A DNA stretch of 64,000 nt from Eunapius fragilis. Taxonomy: Eukaryota > Porifera > Demospongiae > Spongillida > Spongillidae. Under the pieces are notes generated by a model, which saw only the letters and a list, made by a program, of their open reading frames with translations, did no database searches and had not been told where the DNA came from. The translations under genes and the position numbers were made by a program. This document shows positions 3,601 to 46,600 of the stretch, piece by piece. The stretch's first letter is position 1. Each line of letters begins with the position of its first letter. The stretch is from positions 6,004,003-6,068,002 of the forward strand of contig OY811976.1 of assembly GCA_963681505.1 (NCBI GenBank), read 5' to 3'.

Positions 3601-6600
3601 TTCAAACAAAAACAAAACCGATTTTTTATTAATATGGATTTTGTCCGACATTGGATGCTCAATTCAAGGATGGTTTTTATGCTATTCCCATGACCCTCAA
3701 TTCCAGGGGTGTTTTTTTGTTTTAAAAAACAACCACGCCTGGATGTTTCTAGCTTTCTGGGATGATAGCGTACATGTACGAAAGGCTTTTCTGGGCGAAT
3801 TTACACTTGCATCCTTGATTTTAGTGGGACAGCCTATCACCATAGCTGCATATTTTTGATGCGTGTGGGTGAACCATTTTGCGCCCTATATGTCACTCAG
3901 GTTGGGGGCATCAGCCAGGGTAACAGCATCATTGGTCACGCTAAGGTGAAGCTGGTCGATGTGCCTGAAATGGGTTATCTCACCACCGATAGTCCTCCAA
4001 GAGGAGAGATCTGTGTGCAGACTGAAGCCATGGTGGACGGCTACTTCAAAAATGAAGCAGAGACTTCAGAGAAATTCGTTGATGGGTATTTCCGCACGGG
4101 GGATATTGGTGTCATGGAGAGCCCTGACAAGGTTCGCATCATTGATAGGAAAAAGAATATTTTCAAACTTGCCCAGGGAGAGTTTGTGTCACCAGAGAGA
4201 CTGGAGAACCTGTACACCAGCTCAAGTCCTCTGATTGAGCAAGTGTATGTCTATGGTAACAGCTTGCAGATGAATGTAGTGGCTGTTGTTGTTCCACACT
4301 CGGGCGGCCTTTTGGCATGGTGGTCCTCAAATTCCAAGGACATTGGTACGTTGCTCCAATGTGATTAAAAATTAAATGTAGCATAAACACTGATCTGCAA
4401 TAATGTAGGTGTGGTATTTAAGTTCATAGGTGCGTAATCTAATAATAACCAATGGATGCAATGCTCAGTGAATAATTCCAATTCCAATGTTCATTGGTGC
4501 CACTAAGCACATAAGACAAAGTTGTACTGTGGCTTAATGTATTTTGTGTTGTATATTGCTAACTACTCTCAATGCAAGGATATATTCATTCTTCATATTT
4601 AACATGTGTATGTGCTTGTAAGTATGAATGAGTAATATTGTCACTGGTTCATCGCACTATACATTTTTACTTGAAGATAGTGTTTATAGCTAAATTGCAC
4701 ACTATGCGTCAACAATTGTGTTTAAATATATTATGATGTTCCAAGCAATGGCATGTACACCATGTCTGAAAGAGCTGTGTAGTTTGACTGAAGTGAAGAA
4801 GTTGTATCTACAAGAAATGCAACATTGTGCTAGCCTTCGTGGACTGAAAGGATGGGAGGTGCCTGTTGGCATATTACTTGAGCCAGAAATTTTTACTGAG
4901 AAGAACGGTCTCTTAACAACTGCCCTGAAATTAAATAGGCCAAATTTGGAAAAGAAGTACCGAATTTTGTTAGAGGATCTTTACAATCAATCGTGTTCTA
5001 TTAAAACGTGAGTGATTAGTTATTTTTCCCACTTGTGTACATTGCTACTGCATGATCTGGTAACTGTAGTATAAAAACTGGTAGCTAGTTTGATATCGAG
5101 TAGTGTTATACCACATAGGGAAATACACACATGTTTGTGCGGTATTTAAAAAAAAAACTCACTCTTATAGAAATTCTTCCATTACTAGTTAATTTTCTTT
5201 TCAGGCATTTGGAAGTACTGATTGTGGACTATTTTCAGACAATCAAAAAGCTGCTGGTTCAAGAGCAGACATCAGTACTAAACTGTGCTCCTCCATCACC
5301 ACTTCCTGCCAATGTACTCACATTGTCATTTGCTCAGTTAGGGGGAGACTCAATTGCGGCAATGAGACTTGCTGGCCTGTTCGATGAACATTTTAACAGA
5401 GTGGTGTCTGTCCAGGCAATAATGACTGAACCTCTTCAAAACATCTTACAGCTTGTCCTACTCAAAGCCCACGGTGTTGAGGTTCAAACTCCGTCAATTG
5501 ATTGGAGCAAGGAGATTGTTCTTGATTTTATTAATTCAGATAGCCACAGACATTCTCAGCACCCAGTAGTACCCACAGATGGCAGTACTTCTGTATTTTT
5601 GACTGGTGCTACTGGATTTCTAGGACAGTTTATTCTTCTTGAACTGCTTAAAAACCCAAAATGCCGCCACATTTACTGCTTGGTTCGTGGTACAGAAGGT
5701 ATGGTGACAAAGCTTACCCTGAATATTTTGGGTTTATTGCTCCGTCCAATCATGTTTTAGAGTCATCAAAGAGAAAGATGCAGTCTGTCCTCAGTGAGCT
5801 TGAGCAGCACTTTAGCATTGGGGAGTGGTCCAATAAGGTTGTGGTGGTTAAAGGAGACCTGTGCAGTCATAACCTAGGTCTCAGTGAAGAGGACTACTCA
5901 CTGGTATGCAGTACAGCTGGTGTTATTATCCACAATGGAGCTGTGGTGAATGCGGCTCTTCCATATGAAGGTAGGCATTGTACCTGCCATATTTGCAGGA
6001 GGTGTTGATGAATATATACATGTACATATATTTGAATTAACTCTGGCAATCTGATTAAATCTAGCAATAGCATGATGCAGTTGCCATGCTGGGTTTTGTA
6101 GCAACGCTTATTTTGAAAACGGCGCCATGTGTATTTGGTATACTTACCATTGTATATGTCTTTTGGTGATCCCATGTGCTCAATTTTATATTTCTCTACC
6201 ACTCATCAAAGCTCTCAAGTCCTCCAATGTTGGAAGCACCAAGGAGATTATCAAGATGGCCTGCAAGGGTTGTCCAAAATTTCTGCATTATGTCTCCACC
6301 ATTGGTGTGTTTGCACCGTCCACGACCTCAGAACCAATATCAGAGAAAACCAGTGCATCACATGACCGGTCAGTACTGTGATACGAGATGCACCTTAATG
6401 GCTTGGTCATTGAACTGTACAGGTTGCATGAGCTCACAGGTTATTCACAGTCCAAATGGGTTTCTGAGATGCTGGTCTTTTCTGCTGTTGCAAAAGGATT
6501 GGTCAGTGGAAGCATCAGCAGGTATGTCAATGTAGTTTATTTTGATGGGGTGTTTAGGTCTACAGTATGTTTAATGTTGGTGGGAATGCTACCCTCAGGA

Positions 6601-24030: not shown

Positions 24031-24255
24031 TGATCAAAAAGTCGATTGTATATTTTGGTAATTGTATTGTTATATTGGGCCGTACTAAACGCTACTTGTG
24101 ACATTACATGGCAGAATCTTGACGAGTTTAGAATTGTCGATAACCAAACCGGAAAACTATAGGAGCAGTAAACTATAGGAGCAGTAGCAAATGATTTACA
24201 ATCAACTTCATCTATTTGGTAGTATAATTAGATATGAGGGAAAAATCCTATGAAA

Positions 24256-24397
24256 CAAGTAACTAAAAACATTCTCTATGAGAAAGTTGGTGAGATATAG
24301 GATTTGAAGGCAATGGTGGTGTAAATAGCAAGGAAACAAGGGTCTGTAATAGTAAGGGAAAATGTCAATATTTAGCAAACGAAGATAGTATATGCTG
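24256..24397. mobile_element. MF1 foldback MITE, left half (split copy)
   Basis: Left arm of a palindromic MITE that reads CAAGTAACTAAAAACATTCT, then GAGAAAGTTGGTGAGATATAGG, and on to TAGTAAGGGAAAATG. Its matching right arm is at 29219-29358. The two halves share private variants (GTAAATAGCAAGG, CTGTAATAGTAAGG) not found in other copies, so they are arms of one MITE now separated by 4.8 kb. Intact MF1 copies of 284 and 288 bp lie at 36557-36840 and 54607-54894. Confidence 0.85.
24393..24397. repeat. 5-bp target duplication TGCTG, left
   Basis: TGCTG immediately precedes CACAGTGG at the left end of the RAG1-like element; the same five bases (29219-29223) follow its right end. A GC-rich 5-bp duplication is what Transib/RAG-type transposases make. 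Confidence 0.8.
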
Positions 24398-24872
24398 CAC
24401 AGTGGTTTAAGAGCAGGACATTGGGTATGGGTATGATGCATTTTTTTTTTTGCATAAACATTGTTGTAACTGATTGAAGTGTTACATTTTATTAGTAAAA
24501 TAAGAAATAGAATTTTTTTTTTAAAGCTGTGCACATCGAAAGTGAATTTGATGTGCGTTTTTCATTTCTGCTTACTTGAATTTTATCTGCTTTCCAAAAT
24601 ATATAAATTTGCAGTTTAGTATGTGAGTAAATAGCGTTTGTTCTGCTATTTCCAATAATACTAAACTCATAGGTACTTGCTTCAAATGCGCGGTAATATG
24701 TTCCCTTTTATACGTAAAAAAACAAAAAAATTTCGATGTACCAACTTCAAGCACTTTTCTACACGATTCTAGGACCGAGCGAAGCAAGGAGTAACGGCCA
24801 ATCGAATCTCCCGTGCATTTCCAATCCTCCAACGTAGCCGACTCCAACCGACTTTCCGTTTAGTGCTGCAAC

Positions 24873-26076
24873 CATAGATTGAAGAATACCTGGATACGAA
24901 ACGCGGAGATAATTAGAAATGATCCGCGTTTCGGCACGTGACACATTTGGTGTAAAATTAAACTTATAAAGAGATAGCCTACCAAGGGCCGAAACTGACT
25001 TGCCATAATACGAGCATAATACGAGCGATACAGGTAACGATTACAGACAGTAAGATACCTGAAACACAGGCCAAAACAGATCCTCTTAACGAGTTGCTTA
25101 CAACTTCCGATACCGTTGGTCCGTTGTTTTCAATACATTTTGCTGTGGCCGGGTTACGTTCGGCTATTCTAGCTTGTCTACATCACCCAAGAATAAAAGC
25201 ACATTCAGCTAGAGAGAGAGAGCTTACAGATGTTTCAAACAGGCACGTTTGATGGAATTGCCGCCTATTTGGAAACGCTTTTTCTGTGTCATTGGTCTGC
25301 AGTCGATTCATCAATCGTGCTTACAAGGCATTTGTTCAATCAGCTACTACACAACTTTAAGTACTATAAGTGCATTCCCTACAAGTGATCATAGTAACTG
25401 CGTAGATGTGTCTAAGTGCTATATACAGTGTAGCTTGCACTGACCGTGCAAGAGATGTACCGAAACATATATCGGTCCAGGGACGATTTAATGAAAATAA
25501 CCCGCACAACTATAACTTCTATAAGACATTTGCATAACGTTGGTCCACCTTTGGTTGTATGCGTTCCACAGAACAACTCTTTCTGAACATTGAAAAACAA
25601 ATTTGGACTTTGTTGCGTGTGTCTGACTCACACACTATGTTCCGAAACACGGTGGGTCCGCGACCTGTTCACCAGGCAGTTGTACACACATGCTAAAGCC
25701 CCTTACAACGGCTATACGTTCGTTCCACAGAGGGAATAGCATAATGCTTTGCTTTTAGAAATGAATAGTTGGAAGCATCTCTAAGCTGAGATATATGTTC
25801 CGAAGAGGCGGAAATGACAGATACGGTACCTACGTAGAGTGTGCTCAGTGATTTGCATGAACAATAGTTACTAACCTGGAAAGCAAGATCAGTGGGAGTA
25901 CGAAGAATGCCTAAGATCTCGATTTTTCTCTTAAACAGCAGTGAAAGTAGGGGGGAAAGCGTAATCTACAAAAGGGTTAACCGAAACACAGTTCACTTGA
26001 AAGGGTCCGCCGCCTACTATTGACAATTCAATGGATCACGTGACGCGTTTCGTATCCAGGTATTCTTCAATCTATG
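24873..26076. mobile_element. Nested 1.2-kb TIR element, non-coding
   Basis: Perfect 33-bp inverted repeats at 24873-24905 and 26044-26076 (starting CATAGATTGAAGAATACC), flanked on both sides by the direct repeat CTGCAAC (24866-24872 and 26077-26083), a 7-bp duplication. The interior has no convincing ORF. It contains a spaced repeat in which CCGAAAC, GGTCC and CGTTCCACAGA recur (around 25458-25570 and 25640-25730, with a weaker CCGAAAC at about 25979). TIR and duplication length are compatible with hAT- or P-type elements, not with the host RAG1-like element. Confidence 0.75.
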
Positions 26077-26471
26077 CTGCAACTAAGGTTCAAACGCGCG
26101 ACATAGCGATGACTGATTAATTAATAATTATTTTAATAACTGTTTAGATGAGCCGTATCCTATGTGACGATCAGGGTGACGATTGGGTTCTTTTGTGTGC
26201 TGCTAGCTCCAGACAACAATAGCAGGCTACGGCAGCACCGTCTTTGTTCTTTTATGGAGGATTTGCGCTGTCTTTGTGCTCTTTGTGTCGTGCACGCATG
26301 CGTATATCGTATGCATACCTGTATATAATGACTTATGTGGGCGATTATACCCGTCTCTTTTTCTATATGCGAAGTGTGTTTGATTGCTATTTGGTTGTTT
26401 GATTGCTATTTGGTTGTTCAAAGCTGGTCGGTGACATTAGCGTGCTATTGCAGTTTGATTTCAAAGGTTTT

Positions 26472-28826
26472 ATGGCTCAAAAGGGAAAGTCGATTTCCAA
26501 CGCGGACGCTTACGACAAATACATAAAGAAGTTTAAAAGCGATTGGGAGGCTTCAGGGCACTTTATTAGCGATGAAAGCTTACTTTCTGAGAAGGATCAA
26601 AGTAGCAAGTTAAAGAAACATTGGTCTAATCGAATGGCCCTGCTGAGAAGGAAGTGGAATAAACTAAATCGAAATAAACGGTCAGAGAAGACAATAGAAG
26701 CCTTTCTCTCCTACCAACAAGAGTTATTTTACAATCCCTCCACTATAGTTGAAGGTGACATCACTATGTCATCTGCTTCATCGCCTGAACAGAATGTGGA
26801 AGGTGGAAGTACTGTTGAAGAAAACGAAGAAGTGCACATGAGGACTGTACCTCTGAGCCCGTTAGATGAACTCAGCCAAAGACACGCAAGGAGGAGAACT
26901 GATGCTATACTTACTCAATTGAAAGAGGAAGCAGAGAAGCAGATGATAACAGTCACTCAACTTTTGGGATACCTACTTTACAGGGTAAACTACACTCACG
27001 ATAAGGCTGTGGCTGAGGTTGGTAAGAAGTTGTTCGACCAGGAATCCGTAGACAGAGAGGTTACCTTGGATGAAGCTTTGTATATGCTGTCAACTTATAG
27101 GCTGGGCCGATCAGCCTACACAAGTTTGAGACATGATCTGATGCAAAAGGTGGACCTACCAGCTCATTATAAACTTATGCAACACAAGAACATGATTATG
27201 CCCAGTGTGACTTCTCCAATTGGAGTGTCAGGGGTCTCTGTAAACCTCTGTGAATCTGTTCGGATTCACTTTCAGAGACTTATTGGGATTCTGGGGTTGC
27301 AGCCTGGAACATATAGGATGTCTGCAAAGGAAGGTCTTGATGGATCAGGGAGGCATGCCATCTATGATCAAAAAGGAAATGTTGAGACTCACAACATGAT
27401 TCTCTGGATGTGGGTACCCTTAGAAGTCTCAAAAGATCTAGATCAAGACCAGCCTAGCACAAGTCAGAGCAATGTAATATGGACTGAAGGCACTCCTAAC
27501 AGCCCTGATGCTGCTCGACCGATATTGATCACATTGGGAAAAGAGGACAGTGATTTGCTAAACAAAATCGTTCCTCCAGTCGATGGTGAAATAGAACTGC
27601 TGCATAGAAGTGGTGTGACAGTTGACGATTATGGAAAGGTGTATGAATTGAAAATACAATTTCTTCGCTCAATGAACGATGGTAAAATGCAAAAGCTTTT
27701 GGTTGGGAGAGGAGGAGCATTTTGTATCTTATGTTCATTCACAAAAGAAGATGCTGTTTCTGTGGACCAAATTCAGGATGGATTTGAAATGGATAATGTG
27801 GATATCGATACATTGAAGGCTCTTTATGAAAGTTTGGAAGTTGATGGGGAAGTTTCAAAATCAAGAGGGGATTACGAGGAGCGAATGGGTTTAACTCAAA
27901 CTCCTATTACATCCTTTAATGTGCATACCTTTCCCATTCTTCATGCGCTCCTGAGGGGTTTAGACTACTGTTTAAAAATAATGTACAAGCTGAATGCAGG
28001 AGTGACTGCCTGGAGAGAAAACAAAGAGCAGGCCAGTCGGGTTAATAAAGCTAAGGAAAGAGTGAGGGAAATAATAAAAGAAAAAACTGGAATGATTATT
28101 GACAGGCCCGACAGTGTAGGAGGAGGAACCACAACTACTGGGAACACGGCAAGAAAATGTTTGTTTGAGGCAAAAAACCGTCAGGTTTTGATAGAGTGTA
28201 TACCTCTAAAGGTCAGATCAGATGGAGAGTGTGACAGAAAAGTCTTTGATGAATTTATCACTAACCTCTCTGTTGTTTTAAGAGCAATTTCATCTAAGCA
28301 AATAGTGAACACTCATCAACTTGACCAACTGTGTAAAGAAACAGCAATTAAACTGGTACATCACTGGCCTACTTTCAGATTTACACCAACCATGCATGAA
28401 ATTCTTGCACATTCAGCAGCATTGATTCATGCTAATGAGTCAAAAGGCTTAGGTACACTTTCTGAAGAGCCATTGGAGCATAATAATAAAAATCTTCGTG
28501 CATATCGTGAAAGATTGGCTCGAAAAACAACGCAGCAGGCGAACCTAACAGATGTGCTAACTAGACTGTGGATCAAGTCAGATCCAATAGTGAGGAGTTA
28601 TCGACGTGTGGTTCAATGTTCATTTTGCAATGGACCACACAATGTTCGCTCCTGCCCCCAAAGATTGGAGGTCACTAGTGGGTGCGTATCATTTGAAGAT
28701 CACTTGGTTGAGTGTATTTTTACTACTGGGGAGGGAACGGATCAAGGTGTACACATGGAATATGATGAAGATACTGCTATATCCCAACAATCTTCAACTC
28801 ACATGGCATCTGGTGATAGCATTTAA
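26472..28826 (+). CDS. RAG1-like transposase (784 aa, intact)
   Basis: DDE-type transposase that would bind the element ends and cut and paste it in the nucleus. The frame is open upstream to 26403, but the first ATG is at 26472. Comparison with the vertebrate RAG1 core, from memory, matches in order: GLDGSGRH (Asp290, first catalytic acid), VDDYGKVYELKIQF then CILC (zinc cysteines), LHALLRGLDYCLKIMYKL, GGGTTTTGNTARKCL (RAG1 has NGNFARKL), MHEILAH (the H-x4-H zinc pair, as HKTLAH in RAG1) and LSEEPLEHNNKNLRAYR (Glu669, like GNESGNKLFRRF). A CCHC-like knuckle (CSFCNGPHNVRSC) lies near the C-terminus. The second catalytic Asp is not at the RAG1 position. No RING or nonamer-binding domain recognised. 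AATAAA follows at 28950. Single exon, no stops. Confidence 0.85.
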   Translation: MAQKGKSISNADAYDKYIKKFKSDWEASGHFISDESLLSEKDQSSKLKKHWSNRMALLRRKWNKLNRNKRSEKTIEAFLSYQQELFYNPSTIVEGDITMSSASSPEQNVEGGSTVEENEEVHMRTVPLSPLDELSQRHARRRTDAILTQLKEEAEKQMITVTQLLGYLLYRVNYTHDKAVAEVGKKLFDQESVDREVTLDEALYMLSTYRLGRSAYTSLRHDLMQKVDLPAHYKLMQHKNMIMPSVTSPIGVSGVSVNLCESVRIHFQRLIGILGLQPGTYRMSAKEGLDGSGRHAIYDQKGNVETHNMILWMWVPLEVSKDLDQDQPSTSQSNVIWTEGTPNSPDAARPILITLGKEDSDLLNKIVPPVDGEIELLHRSGVTVDDYGKVYELKIQFLRSMNDGKMQKLLVGRGGAFCILCSFTKEDAVSVDQIQDGFEMDNVDIDTLKALYESLEVDGEVSKSRGDYEERMGLTQTPITSFNVHTFPILHALLRGLDYCLKIMYKLNAGVTAWRENKEQASRVNKAKERVREIIKEKTGMIIDRPDSVGGGTTTTGNTARKCLFEAKNRQVLIECIPLKVRSDGECDRKVFDEFITNLSVVLRAISSKQIVNTHQLDQLCKETAIKLVHHWPTFRFTPTMHEILAHSAALIHANESKGLGTLSEEPLEHNNKNLRAYRERLARKTTQQANLTDVLTRLWIKSDPIVRSYRRVVQCSFCNGPHNVRSCPQRLEVTSGCVSFEDHLVECIFTTGEGTDQGVHMEYDEDTAISQQSSTHMASGDSI

Positions 28827-29218
28827 ACAGTGGCACTTAAACTGAGTCCTCATTAGATTTGTAGTAATAACTAAAATTTCTATTGCATTGAACTGCAGTA
28901 ATCTTATACTTGATTACATTGGTTTGATTCTAGTTAATTAATTTGTATTAATAAAAATTATGTTATTCCACCACTTGTTAACGGTGGATAAAGAAATAGT
29001 TGTGTGTAGTTAACTACTGCAGGGTATCTTGTTATTCAGTTTTAAAACCAGTACTTTTAATCTTGATTATGTTGGTTTGATATTATGTAACATAAAATAC
29101 AAAACAGATATTAATCAATGTACATTAATTCATAACAGCTGTGGTAGTAATACTTAGGTGTGGTTGGATTCTAATAAATTTAAAATGTCCTCATGGACTA
29201 CACTTCTAAACCACTGCG

Positions 29219-29358
29219 TGCTGCAAGCGGGCTAAATATAGGACTATGACATTTTCCCTTACTATTACAGACCCTTGTTTCCTTGCTATTTACACCACCA
29301 TTGCCTTCAAATCCTATATCTCACCAACTTTCTCATAGAGAATGTTTTTATTAACTTA
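29219..29358. mobile_element. MF1 foldback MITE, right half (split copy)
   Basis: Begins with the second TGCTG (29219-29223) and continues as the inverted complement of 24256-24397, ending near CTCATAGAGAATGTTTTTAT. Outer target duplications of the MITE are not clear. Confidence 0.8.
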
Positions 29359-30985
29359 TCATCAATTCAGACTTTATAACTTTACAACAGACACTGCATG
29401 GATGGTATAATAGTATTCACATCCAACTGCAAATAAAAGCAGTCAGCACTTGCACTCAGCATTTTATAAACCATACACACAAACAAAGATCAAGTTGCAT
29501 TGTGGGACCAGGCAAACCCTAAAGCCAAAGAACCTTAATCCACCCAAGCATGTAATGCATTCTATAGGTCGCACCAAACCATCAGCACCAACAGCCACTT
29601 TGCGCTTGCTTCGGATGGTGTTGTGTTTCATGGATGTATAGTGCAAACATGAAATGAGGCTGTCTAGTAGCATGTATATGTACCATTCTTGACCATTATC
29701 ATATAACAATAGAGTCGAGACAAAGGGGATAGCAATCCTAGGAAGCACTACAGATGTGGATTTGCCAGCACAATTGGCGTTTGATTAGCATGAAAATGAC
29801 GAATGTATGGGAACTTTGGAGGTGAAAATATAAATGAACACCGCCTACATTACTATATTATGCACATCTCTTTACAGTTAATAAGCAGATTGGTACATGC
29901 ATGTACCCCTCTCCCAAGACGCACACTCGCACACGTCTTCAAAATTTTCCCATCAGCTTATCATGAAAGTGTATTAGACCGCTCTCATCACTGTTGCACA
30001 CAAGGTATGAGAAAGTAGTGGTGGCCCATGGGATATGAACATGTGTGTATGTGTGTGCATGTGTGCGTACATGTATGTGTGTATGTGTGTGTGCGTATGT
30101 GTGTATGTGTGTGCGTGTGTGTGTGTGTATGTGTGTGTATGTGTGTGTGCGTGTGTGTGTGTGTATGTGTGTGTGTGTCTGTTGCATGCAATAGGTTCAT
30201 TGCTGTATTGAGGTAGGGACATCCTTCTATTCAGTAACGATGCACATGTACATATCATTATCTGATATTTAAAAAAAGAATTAGTACATTTCTCTGAACG
30301 TATTACGAAATGCAATTTTCAGTAGGAAAATGTGTTTAATAGCCAGATGGAAGCATAAATGATGCAAATGTCAAGTGGGATGTAATTCATTACCTACAAG
30401 GAAAGAACAGTATTAAATGCTTTAAGCAACCAACACATATATGCTAACATATGGGACATGAATATCTGGACATAGGTGGATTTAGAGGGGCGGGGGTGGG
30501 GGAAGGGGAGGTCCAGGGGGTCCTCCCTTTTCCTTAATGCATACTTCAATCTATGCACCTAAGTCACTTCCTGTTAGTGTATCATTCGTGGATTTTCAAG
30601 CTGGTATATAATTTGCATGTGTATCAGGCATGCAGTAAAAGGAGGGGCACCCCTCCTATCATCAATTACTCACAATTACTCATACCGGAACCCCTAATTT
30701 CCTGCATCCGCCACTGCTGCAAGCTCACACCACATAATTCACTCAGTATATTCGTCCTAAGAAAGCTTCTTGGGTGTCTGCGTTCATGTACGTGTGTGTG
30801 TGTGTGTGTGTGTGTGTGTTGTGTGTGTGTGCGTGTGTGTGTGTGCGTGTGCGTGTGTGTGCGTGCGTGTGCATGCGTGTATGTGTGTATGTTCAAAATA
30901 AACCTCATTCTTATGCTACTTTCTTTTTATGCAAACCTTCGCAATGTTGTACACTTGGTCAATGTACACTGCCATGCCTTCACAC
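29359..30985. other. Intergenic with TG microsatellites, no gene
   Basis: Holds TG/CA-rich tracts at 30042-30178 and 30790-30890 and a GC-rich patch at 30480-30530. Only repeat-driven open frames are present. Confidence 0.5.
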
Positions 30986-37600: not shown

Positions 37601-40600
37601 ATTGCTTGGTTTAGGCATATCATAGTTCAGGACCTAAACACTCCTTATATATGGAATTTTCTTAATACGAACTCAGAAGTTCTGATCGTGGCGATAGTGT
37701 AAAAGTTAACATCAGCTTCTGGGTGTTTTAATATACATATAAATGAACACAAAAAAATTATGCATGCCCTAACATCAAATGCATCTCTGATACACTTCCA
37801 CTGGTTACCTTGAAGCGATACAGTAGAGGTAATTCCAGGAGAATTACAACCACCTACAATAGAAAGGGTTGCACACACACTGTGCCTGATCTGAACTCAA
37901 TAGAGAACGCTTACCAGCAGCAAAATTTATTACACCAGAATATCCCCCATCTATACCACCACAGGTAGCTGTAACAATGGCCTCATACTGGTCACATAGG
38001 GGGGGAATATTAATAATGACTTGCAGCTCCATCACTGTGCCATTGAATAGCAGAGTCCCATTTCCCCTCCTGACCACCACAGAATATGCCAGGAGGGTTG
38101 GGGACAGAGTACCAGGGGGTAGACCCCAGGATAACCTGACAGAGGTACCAGTAGAAAGAGCAGTCAAATTGCTTGGAGCAGTGGGAGAACCTACAAGATG
38201 CAATTTGTAAAAGAGAGCGTAAGAGTACATTAAAGGCTGTAGGTGGATTGCTTAATTCTGTGTAAATAAAATTTCATACATGACAATATGAACTGATGGC
38301 ATCCCATGATTATCTCAGGTCTTTATTTCATTGCTAGCTTTCCTATTCTGAGCTGATCTCACATAAACACAAACACTCTTGTAAACCTTGTTATCAAGAA
38401 AACAAGGATGGCAATGCAAATTGATTGAATCATACACCTAATGCACGTTACTTTGATCGAAATTTATTACACATGGCACAATAGCAAAACGAGAGTTGAG
38501 TTCAATTTATGCGGTTAAACTGCTTTCAATGCATATGGTTTAAATGTAAATTCAAACATGTTAATGATAGATTGACCCACTTTAATCTTCATGTAGGTGT
38601 TGCAATTCGCTTTTCCCAAAAAGAACAATTAATATAGCAAAAAGGACTACTTGCAAGGTTGTGGCTGAAAATAACACTAGCATGCGACTAGTGTCATTAA
38701 CTATCTCCCTCATTTAGATCGAGTTTTTTTTCCAATTTAGACAAAATCTTGCTGGAAGCATTCTTCATGTTTTAGACAGATAACATTCACCTTCTGTTGT
38801 CAACACACATGATTTCAAAATTTATATGGTTCGTTATCAATATCGTGGGCAATTTTTATACGCTTCACTATCCGGATTATAATCTGCAGTACCAATCGTT
38901 GAATGATCTCAAGTGAATTATAAATGAAGCCTTATGTATTTCTGTTACATTGTTGAGTCAAAGGTTTCTACACCACTAAATGCGAGGAGCAGAGGTTGAA
39001 ATGGAATGCCTACATGTAGGTTAAAACCACATTTTTTGCCTACATGTAGGCGTGACGTCAATTTATCATTAAGGTACAGCAAAAACACATGATTTGTTTC
39101 AATGTCGTCTGACAAATTTATACCCCAATTGTAAGAAAACATCGTATTCTGGCATACCTCTAACCCATCTAACTATTGAACAGAATAAATCCATATTCAT
39201 TGATAGAAGATTTAGAAGAAAAGGATGTACACACAAAATTCAATGCAGTAGTGGAAATACACGATTATAAAAGGTACTGAATTCATAACTCCTGTAACTC
39301 TTCATGAAAAGATTTGATTTTTGTAATTATTGCTTTTGATTTTGCAAAGGTTTGCACATTACATTAGCCCACACAGTTTTACTGCAAATCATTGGTTTAT
39401 CAATTGAAGCAATTCAAACCACTGCTCTTGAAACCAATTAAGTCCAAATGCTAATGTGATTTTCCCCACATACCATTTGATTTTTTGCTGAAAACATACA
39501 TATCTGAACTCAATAGAGAACGCTTACCAGCAGCAAAATTTATTCCACCAAAATATCCCCCATCTATACCACCACAGGTAGCTGTAACAATGGCCTCATA
39601 CTGGTCACAGAGGGGGGGAATATTTATAATGACTTGCAGCTCCATCACTGTGCCATTGAATAGCAGAGTCCCATTTCCCCTCCTGACCACCACAGAATAT
39701 GCCAGGAGGGTTGGGGACAGAGTACCAGGGGGTAGACCCCAGGATAACCTGACAGAGGTACCAGTAGAAAGAGCAGTCAAATTGCTTGGAGCAGTGGGAG
39801 AACCTACAAGATGCAATTTGTAAAAGAGAGCGTAAGAGTACATTAAAGGCTGTAGGTGGATTGCTTAATTCTGTGTAAATAAAATTTCATACATGACAAT
39901 ATGAACTGATGGCATCCCATGATTATCTCAGGTCTTTATTTCATTGCTAGCTTTCCTATTCTGAGCTGATCTCACATAAACACAAACACTCTTGTAAACC
40001 TTGTTATCAAGAAAACAAGGATGGCAATGCAAATTGATTGAATCATACACCTAATGCACGTTACTTTGATCGAAATTTATTACACATGGCACAATAGCAA
40101 AACGAGAGTTGAGTTCAATTTATGCGGTTAAACTGCTTTCAATGCATATGGTTTAAATGTAAATTCAAACATGTTAATGATAGATTGACCCACTTTAATC
40201 TTCATGTAGGTGTTGCAATTCGCTTTTCCCAAAAAGAACAATTAATATAGCAAAAAGGACTACTTGCAAGGTTGTGGCTGAAAATAACACTAGCATGCAA
40301 CTAGTGTCATTAACTATCTCCCTCATTTAGCTTGAGTTTTTTTTCCCAATTTAGACAAAATCTTGCTGGAAGCATTCTTCATGTTTTAGACAGATAACAT
40401 TCACCTTCTGTTGTCAACACAGATGATTTCAAAATTTATATGGTTCGTTATCAATATCGTGGGCAATTTTTATACGCTTCACTATCCGGATTATAATCTG
40501 CAGTACCAATGGTTGAATGATCTCAAGTGAATTGTAAATGAAGCCCTATGTATTTCTGTTACATTGCTCGAGTCAAAGGTTTCTACACCACTAAATGCGA

Positions 40601-43600: not shown

Positions 43601-46600
43601 TCTAATCAAAGATCAGCTTTGGTAGGAATGGATTTTGTTAATGGGCCTGTGGCAGACTTGCTTGCAAGAGGGTAGTACCTGAGGTACCCATGTGTGCAGT
43701 CCCCTATCAGTGATAACCAATCACTCTGGAAAAGAGGCTGGTAGTGAATCTAAGACACATGAACAGGTCGCTCTGGAAACAGAAGTTCACGTATGAGGAC
43801 TTGCGTGTGGTGATGATGCTATTTGAACCTGGTGAGTGGATGTTTTCGTTTGATCTGAAGTCAGGCTATCACCATATAGATGTGGCTCAAAAACATCGTA
43901 AGTACTTGGGGGGTTCATGGGAGGGTATGTTGTACAGATTTGTGGTATTGCCTTTTGGACTGTCATCAGCACCTTACATGTATGTTTTCACAAAGATGAT
44001 GCATCCATTAGTTAGGTTATGGCGTAGTAAGGGCCTTAAGGCAGTGGTTTATTTAGACGATGGCGTTTGTGCATTAAAAAATGAAAAAGAAGCCACTATG
44101 GCTTGTAATTGGATAAAGGAGACGCTGGCAAAAGCAAGATAGGTATACAGCTAAGTCAAATCAGTTTGGCAACTCACACATAAGCTAGAGTGGCTTGGCT
44201 TTGACCTAGATCTGGGGCAGGGATGTATTTCTGTGCCTACACAGAAGATCAGTGCTCTTATAAGGTTAACCTAGTAATGGCAGTTCAGCAAACTACCCAC
44301 AGAGCAAGCTTGGTTTGGTAAGATCATATTCATGAGCCTCGCTTTAGGTCCAGTTGCCAGATTTATGACACAAGAATTGTATTCATTATTGGAGACCAGG
44401 AGTTCATGGTGTGAATTTCTAGCAGTGCCAAAAGAAGCAAGGGAGGAGCTTTTATTTTGTGAAGATTGCCTACAAGAGCATAGCTCACAGCCTATATGGT
44501 ATAGCCCATCTGCAGTCAGATGTGTGTACTCGGATGCAAGTGATACAGGTTATGGAGGATATACTGTGGAGCACGTATGCACATTGCTCAAGGTAACTGG
44601 TTTACCTAAAGAAGCTAAACAGAGCTCAACTTGGAGAGAGCTGGTAGCGGTGGGAAGGGTGTTGATGTCAGTGGCCAAAAAATTGCGTAACATCAGAGTG
44701 TGTTGGTTTACAGATAACCAAAATGTTGTTCGAATTCTGAAAGTAGGCAGTTGCAAGCTCCATTTGCAGGTAGAGGCCTTAATGGTGTTGAAAGCATGTG
44801 TAGCCAATAATATCAGGTTGGAGCGAGAGTGGGTTCCAAGGGAGAAAAATCAGCTTGCAGACTACTTCAGTCGTTTATTGATTATGACGACTGGTATATT
44901 GACCAGAAAGTGTACAAATTGTTGGATGCAAAGTGGGGTCCACACACAGTGGACAGGTTTGCTACATGTTATAATGCACAGGTCCAGCAATTCAATTCCC
45001 GATATGCATGCCCGGATGCAGAAGCGGTGGACGCTTTTACAGTAGACTGGTCTAAAGAAAACAACTGGTGGTGTCCACCCCAATGTTGGTGCCACGAGTA
45101 CACAGGCATGCGGAGCATTTTAATGCACAGGGGACACTGGTTGTGCCTATGTGGGAGTCAGCCCCCTTTTAGCCTTTGCTGTACACTTGTGCTAACGGAT
45201 GGGCACCATTTGTGTTGGATTGTCCGAACAGCTTATTCAGCAAGGTAGAGATGGGTCAGCCCTGTTTAAAGGGAAGTTCCCTAACGCAGATGTGATTGAA
45301 TTGCTGTGAGAATTGATTTCAAGCATGTATAAATTAGCCTTGCTGGCTATGTTGTGCCTATAGCCTCAGCGGCTATGCTGTGTCTGTAACCTTGGTGGCT
45401 GTATGTTTTGCGTGTGTATTAGCCTCGGTGGCTACATTGTGCTTATAGCCTTGGTGGCTGTATGTGTGTGTTAGGTGTATGTATTAGCCTCTGCGGCTAT
45501 CTTGCGTCTATAGCCTTGGTGGCTGTATGTGTTGTGCGTGTGAATTAGCCTCGGTGGCTACATTGTGCCTATAGCCTTCAGTGGCTGATGGGCTGTGTGA
45601 ATGTATTAGCCTCAGTGGCTATAGTCTTGGCGGCTATTGTGTTGGACCCATATCTCAGCGGTGGTGGTACTTAGTGTTGTAGCTTATGTCCGGCCTCAGC
45701 GGCTGTGGCATGGCTAAAGTGCAGTGGCAGCAAAGGATAATGCAGTTTACACTGTCCTTTTTTGCTGCAGGTGTCTTCAAATCGGGAGCTTGGCCCCCTG
45801 CTGAGTAATCTGGAGGACCTTGAGCTGCAAAGGTTGGCCAAAGCGCTACCAGCAACAGTGCTGAGAAGCAAGGCAGACAGTACCACAAAGATGTACCTTG
45901 GTGCCTATCAGCGTTGGAAGACCTGGGCGGATGCAAGACAAGGAGTGCCAAGCTTCCCAGAACAAAAGTTTCACCTGGTGCTGTACTTACAGCACCTCAG
46001 TGAGTCCACAGAATCCAAGGCTGCAGTAGAGGAGGCAGTGCATGCGCTCTCCTGGTTCCATGCGTTAGCAGGGCTCCATGCAGCCATTGGGTGAGTCACC
46101 CTTAGTTAAGGCTATTTTAGAAGGTTTGAGGCCCATTTTGGCAAAGCCTAAGGTTCGGAAGGAACCAGTTGCAGCTGAGATGTTGAGGGCCATGGTGGAG
46201 GCTGCTGGAGCAGCTCCATCCCTGACGGAGGTCAGGCTGTTGGCTGTGTGTCTTGTGGCTTTTCCCGGGTTTATGCGGTGTGATGAGCTGATAAGGTTCA
46301 AGGGTGAGGACATCACATTCAATGCTGAGAGCATGGTAATTAGAATAATGTCCAGTAAGACGAACCAGTACCGGGAAGGTTCATTGTTGGTTATAGCCCA
46401 TACGGGTAAGCTGACATGCCCTGTTGGTATGATGGAGAAGTATTTCCGTATGGGGGAGCTAGAAAACACTCCTAATGAGTGTGTGTTTCATAGAATATCA
46501 GTTACCAAAAACGGAGAACGGCTAAGAAAAACAGGAGGCCTTAGTTATACCAGATTGAGGGAATTACTATTGAGTAAAATTTAGAAGTTGGGTTATGACC

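Follow-up and report, generated by a model that had tools for sequence, protein, structure and literature searches.

A probable Transib-superfamily transposon with two-part ends of 12- and 22-bp spacing in the sponge Eunapius fragilis

The stretch of DNA analysed here, referred to as the window, comprises 64,000 nucleotides of the sponge Eunapius fragilis (contig OY811976.1, positions 6,004,003 to 6,068,002 of the forward strand; G000:C6:6004003-6068002 in our numbering), and the genome in which it was searched amounts to 219 Mb in 24 contigs. The window carries a complete DNA transposon of 4,821 bp (24398..29218, plus strand, a nested insertion included), assigned here to the Transib superfamily and flanked on both sides by the target-site duplication TGCTG (24393..24397 and 29219..29223). 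Its first bases are CACAGTGGTTTA and its last bases are TAAACCACTGCG. The only long open reading frame (ORF) of the element encodes a transposase of 784 aa on the plus strand (26472..28826), with its ATG at 26472 and its stop at 28826, or of 807 aa if counted from an in-frame TTG; the next longest ORF overlapping the element has 108 aa. The initial annotation had already delimited the unit at 24393-29223, with TGCTG on both sides and an intact 784-aa ORF, and these coordinates are right.

The element sits in a palindromic miniature inverted-repeat transposable element (MITE), whose two arms, at 24257..24367 (plus strand) and 29247..29357 (minus strand), have 111 bp each and are 98% complementary. 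When the flanks are joined with a single TGCTG, they align across the junction with three unoccupied MITE copies (L063, L064 and L065), so that the element can be seen directly to have entered a site of known type, as had been proposed. A search with the left arm and part of the loop pointed to 1,735 candidate places, of which 40 were scored, and returned at least 72 matches. Going by this number of candidate places, the interrupted MITE (24240-24397 and 29224-29360 of the window) seems to be very abundant.

Within the element, upstream of the ORF, lies a nested insertion of 1.2 kb with 33-bp inverted ends (24873..26074), bordered by two copies of the 9-bp repeat TGCTGCAAC (24864..24872 and 26075..26083). 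This insertion is missing from the five other copies compared (L002, L003, L026/L033, L005 and L015). It resembles a DNA transposon, the flanking repeat having 9 bp, or 8/7 bp if the shared bases are assigned to the inserted element, and a piece 84% similar to it lies near the Transib copy at 3.3 Mb of contig C5 (L033 5-525).

The two ends of the element differ in their layout. The 12-type end (24398..24421, plus strand) consists of the heptamer CACAGTG, the 12-bp spacer GTTTAAGAGCAG, the block GACAT and then TGGG, and the 22-type end (29185..29218, minus strand) consists of the heptamer CGCAGTG, a 22-bp spacer, GACAT and then TTTT, both spacers being counted from the heptamer to GACAT. More generally, a 12-type end reads CACAGTGGTTTA followed by seven variable bases and GACAT, then usually NGGG, and a 22-type end reads CACAGTGGTTTA followed by seventeen variable bases and GACAT, then usually TTT. 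In the ORF-bearing elements checked (the window element, L010, L008, L019 and L023), the 12-type end is the one upstream of the ORF. This 12/22 asymmetry is an addition to what the initial annotation had observed, namely CACAGTG at the ends. That heptamer holds for the left end of the window copy and for most of the family ends read, but not for the right end of the window copy, where CGCAGTG (CACTGCG on the forward strand) is found. In most other copies the right heptamer is CACAGTG (CACTGTG on the forward strand), other changes being GACAGTG in L027 and ...ACCACTAAA in L046. The imperfect TAAACCACTGCG end was also considered as a family feature and rejected, as it is found in no other copy read.

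Altogether, 17 end pairs were found in the fetched loci, and 16 elements remain after one pair, L061, is set aside. All 16 elements with both ends have one end of 12-type and one of 22-type. A perfect 5-bp duplication flanks 14 of them (for example TGGAG, CATTG, CAGCC and CTCTC; two of the 14 are homopolymers), and in the other two the duplication matches at 4/5 and at 2/5 bases. The 5-bp duplications expected from the initial annotation are thus borne out, and neither the kind of ends nor the duplication length changes in the other copies, apart from the exceptions mentioned. The pair set aside (C5:11649951-11653998) joins two 22-type ends and was tried as a symmetric element; it was rejected as an inverted duplication extending past the heptamers, since the arms of the inverted repeat cover 1-93 and 4058-4150 of the locus, whereas the element would begin at 52, and the flanks are mutually reverse-complementary. 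The locus as a whole (G000:C5:11649900-11654050) holds nested palindromes and several inverted duplications, including that of a 22-type Transib end together with its flank.

Throughout the genome, the pattern CACAGTGGTTTAN{0,30}GACAT (that is, CACAGTGGTTTA-N{0,30}-GACAT) occurs at 234 sites, with 2 for the reversed control. A spacer of 12 or 22 bp is found at 219 of these sites, and 15 remain for the 29 other lengths. Searches with a fixed spacer gave 109 sites at 12 bp and 110 at 22 bp, with a control of 0 in both cases, and the 12-type pattern without GTTTA but with NGGG gave 64 (control 0). Using 200 listed sites (100 of the 110 with 22 bp and 100 of the 109 with 12 bp), 48 adjacent facing pairs were obtained within 8 kb, 47 of which combine a 12-type with a 22-type end; one is 22/22, none is 12/12, and 6 more adjacent pairs within this distance are non-facing. 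Among the first 100 of the 234 sites, the spacer has 12 or 22 bp in 94 and 15, 20, 21 or 24 bp in 6, and 21 out of 22 facing pairs are mixed, a number reached by 6 of 100,000 shuffles. Many facing 12/22 pairs lie 0.98-1.9 kb apart, such as those of about 1,107-1,118 bp with GGACCAG/TGACCAG second parts, and are presumably non-autonomous elements.

The block ending in GACAT appears at both ends of the elements, displaced by ten bases. Bases 13-24 of the 12-type end match bases 23-34 of the 22-type end at a 10-bp shift in all five families compared, with 8, 8, 11, 10 and 10 of the 12 bases in agreement, five of which come from GACAT each time. The seven bases preceding GACAT vary between families (part-2 variants include GATGATGACAT, GATGTAGACAT and GACCAGGACAT) and tend to agree between both ends of one family: agreement within families reaches 34/49, with a permutation mean of 23.4, and was attained by 8 of 5,040 permutations. 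This permutation took seven families and left out three variants of family F, and in the row of family A, to which the window element belongs, the 12-end comes from that element and the 22-end from L034. Family A has the heptamer, GTTTA, GACAT and the lengths of both spacers in common with the L010/L008 family. In the case of L007, for which the fetched DNA contains the 22-end only, this end has the same heptamer, GTTTA, GACAT and spacer. Between families, third codon positions differ by 57-60% and the non-synonymous divergence (dN) is 0.25-0.35, the synonymous divergence (dS) being saturated and not computable. With synonymous sites saturated, unconstrained bases would be scrambled, so the persistence of the layout points to a constraint on it; selection probably keeps the 12/22 layout, although the families, being of common descent, do not count as independent tests.

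Alternatively, the layout could have been inherited from a single ancestor and be functionless, the enzyme needing no more than roughly the first 12 bp. Common ancestry is plain for all families of this genome, the ends of HzTransib are described as symmetric (PMC8289069), and invertebrate RAGL transposons are argued to depend on their terminal 15-17 bp (PMC7204232, PMC8289069). We consider this explanation unlikely nonetheless, given that GACAT and both spacer lengths persist across families with so many third-position differences and with changing spacer bases, that the variable part of the second element agrees within families, and that the spacer is 12 or 22 bp at nearly all the sites counted above (219 of 234).

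Turning to the transposase, the 784-aa protein matches HzTransib with an E value of 2e-27 and amphioxus RAG1L with one of 2.5e-7 among the sequences of the PDB, and a profile built from the families in this genome does so at 3.1e-30 and 2.1e-12, respectively. This significant Transib match agrees with the initial annotation as far as it placed the element in the presumed ancestral superfamily of RAG1. In an alignment with HzTransib, BbRAG1L and RAG1, residues D290, D403 and E669 fall on the catalytic positions and C418, C421, H642 and H647 on those of the zinc ligands. The published triad of HzTransib, D126/D225/E436 (PMC6941560), fits this alignment after a constant shift of 17 (hand count). 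Over the shared core, the identity of the window protein is highest with HzTransib (31%), followed by BbRAG1L (25%) and by RAG1 of mouse and zebrafish (21%). BbRAG1L and vertebrate RAG1 were grouped with 100% support, and the window protein was left outside, in a tree of seven sequences that is unrooted, has no outgroup and does not reach the order of the window protein and HzTransib relative to the root of RAG1; in its alignment, residues 236-248 of the HzTransib chain, 13 in number, are missing, and the L010 sequence is truncated at its end. Since its identity to HzTransib is the higher one and the grouping of BbRAG1L with RAG1 excludes it, the protein is filed with Transib: as judged from its sequence, it is a Transib transposase, and not RAG1 or RAG1L. 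The term RAG1-like, which the initial annotation had used for it, does not hold in its narrow sense, as the core is nearer to HzTransib and a second long ORF is absent from the element. Genome searches with pieces of BbRAG1L and HzTransib had their strongest matches at the loci of these very families and revealed, among those matches, no locus nearer to either of the two proteins. Relatives were also searched for in prokaryote genomes and viral contigs, and none was confirmed there.

Three features of the protein lean towards RAG1L. The first one is the distance from the second cysteine of the CxxC ligands to the next conserved histidine, which by hand count amounts to 70 residues in the window protein, as against 61 for BbRAG1L and 31 for HzTransib. 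Residues 421-483 (27732..27920, plus strand), which run from these ligands to the downstream core, may be equivalent to alpha11-alpha12, going by their length in the alignment. The second is the zinc-knuckle-like CSFCNGPHNVRSC in the C-terminal tail (residues 716-728; 28617..28655, plus strand), a Cx2Cx3Hx4C motif whose spacing is the same in L007 and L008. Compared to Cx2Cx3GHx4C, the motif by which the invertebrate RAG1L tail is defined (PMC7204232), it is one residue shorter and has no glycine before the histidine. The third is the stretch of residues ~132-217 (26865..27122, plus strand), which is collinear with the nonamer-binding domain (NBD) of RAG1/RAG1L and aligns in register, weakly, with this region of BbRAG1L and mouse RAG1; the match is suggestive, and none of 200 shuffles reached its score against BbRAG1L.

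These features could also be read as those of a RAGL transposon that is missing its RAG2L gene, and hence of a true RAG1L lineage, considering that the stretch following the CxxC ligands is long here and short in HzTransib, and that the tail resembles the C-terminal tail (CTT*) of RAG1L. Such an origin is very improbable, because the identity to HzTransib exceeds that to BbRAG1L, the latter groups with vertebrate RAG1 without the window protein, and Tao et al. in 2022 (PMC9435367) give both kinds of feature for Transib Subgroup I. Moreover, the window element contains no RAG2L gene, with a single long ORF and no second one above 108 aa overlapping it.

The element belongs to a numerous group of sequences. 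When the genome was searched with the ORF, 57 of 290 candidates were scored and at least 79 stretches were found to match, and the 5' and 3' ends of the element have 42 and 25 matches, respectively. The closest relatives, L002 and L003, are 99% identical to the window ORF and are open only from about residue 63 and residue 142; between the window ORF and L002, dN is 0.009 and dS 0.018, and dS to L003 is also about 0.018. Long open frames are present in two further families, represented by L007 (769 aa) and L010 (730 aa, without the zinc tail), with proteins that are each 58% identical to that of the window. Four matches of the ORF search cover residues 639-784 only; two of them belong to elements that have internal deletions and retain both ends (1,859 and 1,852 bp), and a third one lies in a facing end pair 2,078 bp apart. 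The window element itself, a cut-and-paste transposon, was inserted fairly recently. Given that CAC is reported to be critical for cleavage in RAG and ProtoRAG (PMC8289069) and that the right end of the window copy has none, this copy may supply the enzyme, being itself probably a poor substrate. A host gene domesticated within a dead transposon, which the completeness of this ORF and the lack of CAC in the right heptamer might suggest, is scarcely credible here, since family A copies are young and an intact ORF would be expected even without a host function.

We therefore regard the window element as, probably, a Transib-superfamily DNA transposon that has moved fairly recently, with the transposase as its sole gene and with two-part 12/22 signals as its ends. 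Cleavage by the transposase would take place at CACAGTG through hairpins, as has been reported for both HzTransib and RAG, and would be followed by excision of the element and its insertion with a 5-bp stagger. Each end is composed of CACAGTGGTTTA as its first part and a family-specific block ending in GACAT as its second part. The two parts abut at the end upstream of the ORF (12 bp from the heptamer to GACAT) and are separated at the other end by 10 extra bp, that is, by about one helical turn (22 bp). The second part may be read by the NBD-like N-terminal region, by the zinc tail of the transposase, or by both, and one 12-end would be synapsed with one 22-end, as RAG pairs a recombination signal sequence (RSS) of the 12RSS kind with a 23RSS.

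Several observations weigh against this reading. Among the 89 heptamer-like matches in the fetched loci, 29 are of 12-type and 24 of 22-type, and the other 36, among them degenerate ends and sites located within the ORF, fit neither class and were left unpaired. The 234 sites of the genome-wide pattern come from a search that holds the first 12 bases fixed, so that they gauge spacing and not the conservation of the heptamer. In family A, the 10-bp shift is equalled by one of 2 bp (8/12 each). The variable bases of families A and B agree between ends at just 3/7 positions in either family. Non-autonomous copies inherit one end of each kind, so the pairing of 12 with 22 alone is no proof of a pairing rule. 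With regard to the protein, Pfam gave no credible family for the transposase proteins, and the NBD-like match is weak (E 0.012 for amphioxus, 0.36 for mouse and 0.14 for both together). Finally, among the matches scored, family A has no complete ORF other than that of the window element.

A bolder proposal, which we put forward as possible but rather doubtful, is that the asymmetry between a 12-bp spacer and one longer by a helical turn, together with CACAGTG, predates RAG2 and V(D)J recombination, and that this asymmetry persists as a functional 12/22 pairing rule in an extant Transib family, the second element evolving along with its own transposase. If this were true, the 12/23 rule would have been inherited from transposon synapsis and would not be a vertebrate invention. 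The origin of the 12/23 rule is an open question in the field. This genome offers several diverged families, three of which have long open frames (the window element, L007 and L010). It also offers an abundant 12/22 layout and a second element that varies naturally, for the most part in step at both ends of a family, and it is this combination that makes the question of origin testable.

Other features of the window stand apart from the transposon. At 43744-46584, a reverse transcriptase fragment (PF00078, E 4e-13) is followed by a weak match to a tyrosine recombinase that stays under the curated cut-off (PF00589, E 0.004), and the two may belong to a DIRS-type retroelement. On the minus strand, at 37844-38230 and 39451-39843, two ORFs that are nearly identical and lie 1.6 kb from each other have the appearance of a tandem duplication, the first one with a weak fibronectin III match (E 0.0047, below the cut-off). 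Pieces of the region 3856-5760 match NAD_binding_4 at E 2.8e-9, a phosphopantetheine site at 1.2e-5 and an AMP-binding domain weakly, at 0.0064, and the region may represent a gene similar to carboxylic-acid or aminoadipate reductases.

Regarding known systems, the element shows the traits of the Transib superfamily, namely homology to the DDE core of HzTransib and RAG1, a CAC-type heptamer within an inverted repeat, a 5-bp duplication and a single protein, the last one being a Transib trait described in PMC4411706. HzTransib (PDB 6pqn and others) is the closest solved relative, with the DDE triad and the zinc ligands aligned; it differs in its much shorter stretch from CxxC to the core and in its ends, which are described as symmetric, as are those of most Transib families (PMC8289069). 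Transib elements have been split by phylogeny into Subgroups I and II (Tao et al. 2022, PMC9435367), and Subgroup I is reported to have asymmetric ends, an alpha11-alpha12 equivalent and a RAG1L-type tail, an NBD equivalent being present in both subgroups. The window element is similar to Subgroup I, as described there, in its single transposase gene and its asymmetric terminal inverted repeats (TIRs), and it may be so in its stretch of alpha11-alpha12 length and in having a zinc C-terminal tail, the motif of that tail being Cx2Cx3Hx4C and not the Cx2Cx3GHx4C of RAG1L.

Asymmetric two-part ends are an already known kind among Transibs. According to PMC8355894, which cites a 2005 paper, Transib5 of Drosophila melanogaster and Transib2 and N1-N3 of Anopheles gambiae have asymmetric 12/23 TIRs, with spacers of 12 or 23 (+/-1) bp between heptamer and nonamer parts, whereas other Transibs have symmetric spacers of 20-22 bp; the same text argues that RAGL transposons do not obey the 12/23 rule and that only a few Transibs do. 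Contrary to Transib5, Transib2 and N1-N3, the second element is here family-specific, ending in GACAT, and not an A-rich nonamer, and the spacers have 12 and 22 bp. No description was found, in openly licensed text, of a genome in which many families combine a 12/22 layout with the consensus heptamer of vertebrates and a second part that is specific to each family, figures and supplements lying outside that scope.

Among RAGL transposons, the ProtoRAG of amphioxus (BbRAG1L, PDB 6b40) likewise has two-part asymmetric ends (TR1 + TR5), 5-bp duplications and a related core. Its two conserved parts lie 27/31 bp apart, its TR5 is GCCATCTTG, asymmetric pairs are preferred (PMC8289069), and, in contrast to the window element, RAG2L is present. 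The sequence GACATTTTT agrees with the TR5 of ProtoRAG at 6/9 positions (hand count), which may be due to chance. An algal RAGL element has spacers of 4/13 bp (Tao et al. 2022, PMC9435367), and asymmetric two-part ends have been argued to date from an ancestral RAG transposon (PMC8289069). The signals of V(D)J recombination, in turn, share with the sponge elements the heptamer CACAGTG, found at the left end of the window copy and at most ends of other copies, though not at its right end, as well as the 12-bp spacer at one end and about one extra helical turn at the other. They differ from them in that the longer spacer has 22 and not 23 bp here, and in that, instead of the nonamer ACAAAAACC, the sponge elements have GACAT, followed mostly by TTT or NGGG.

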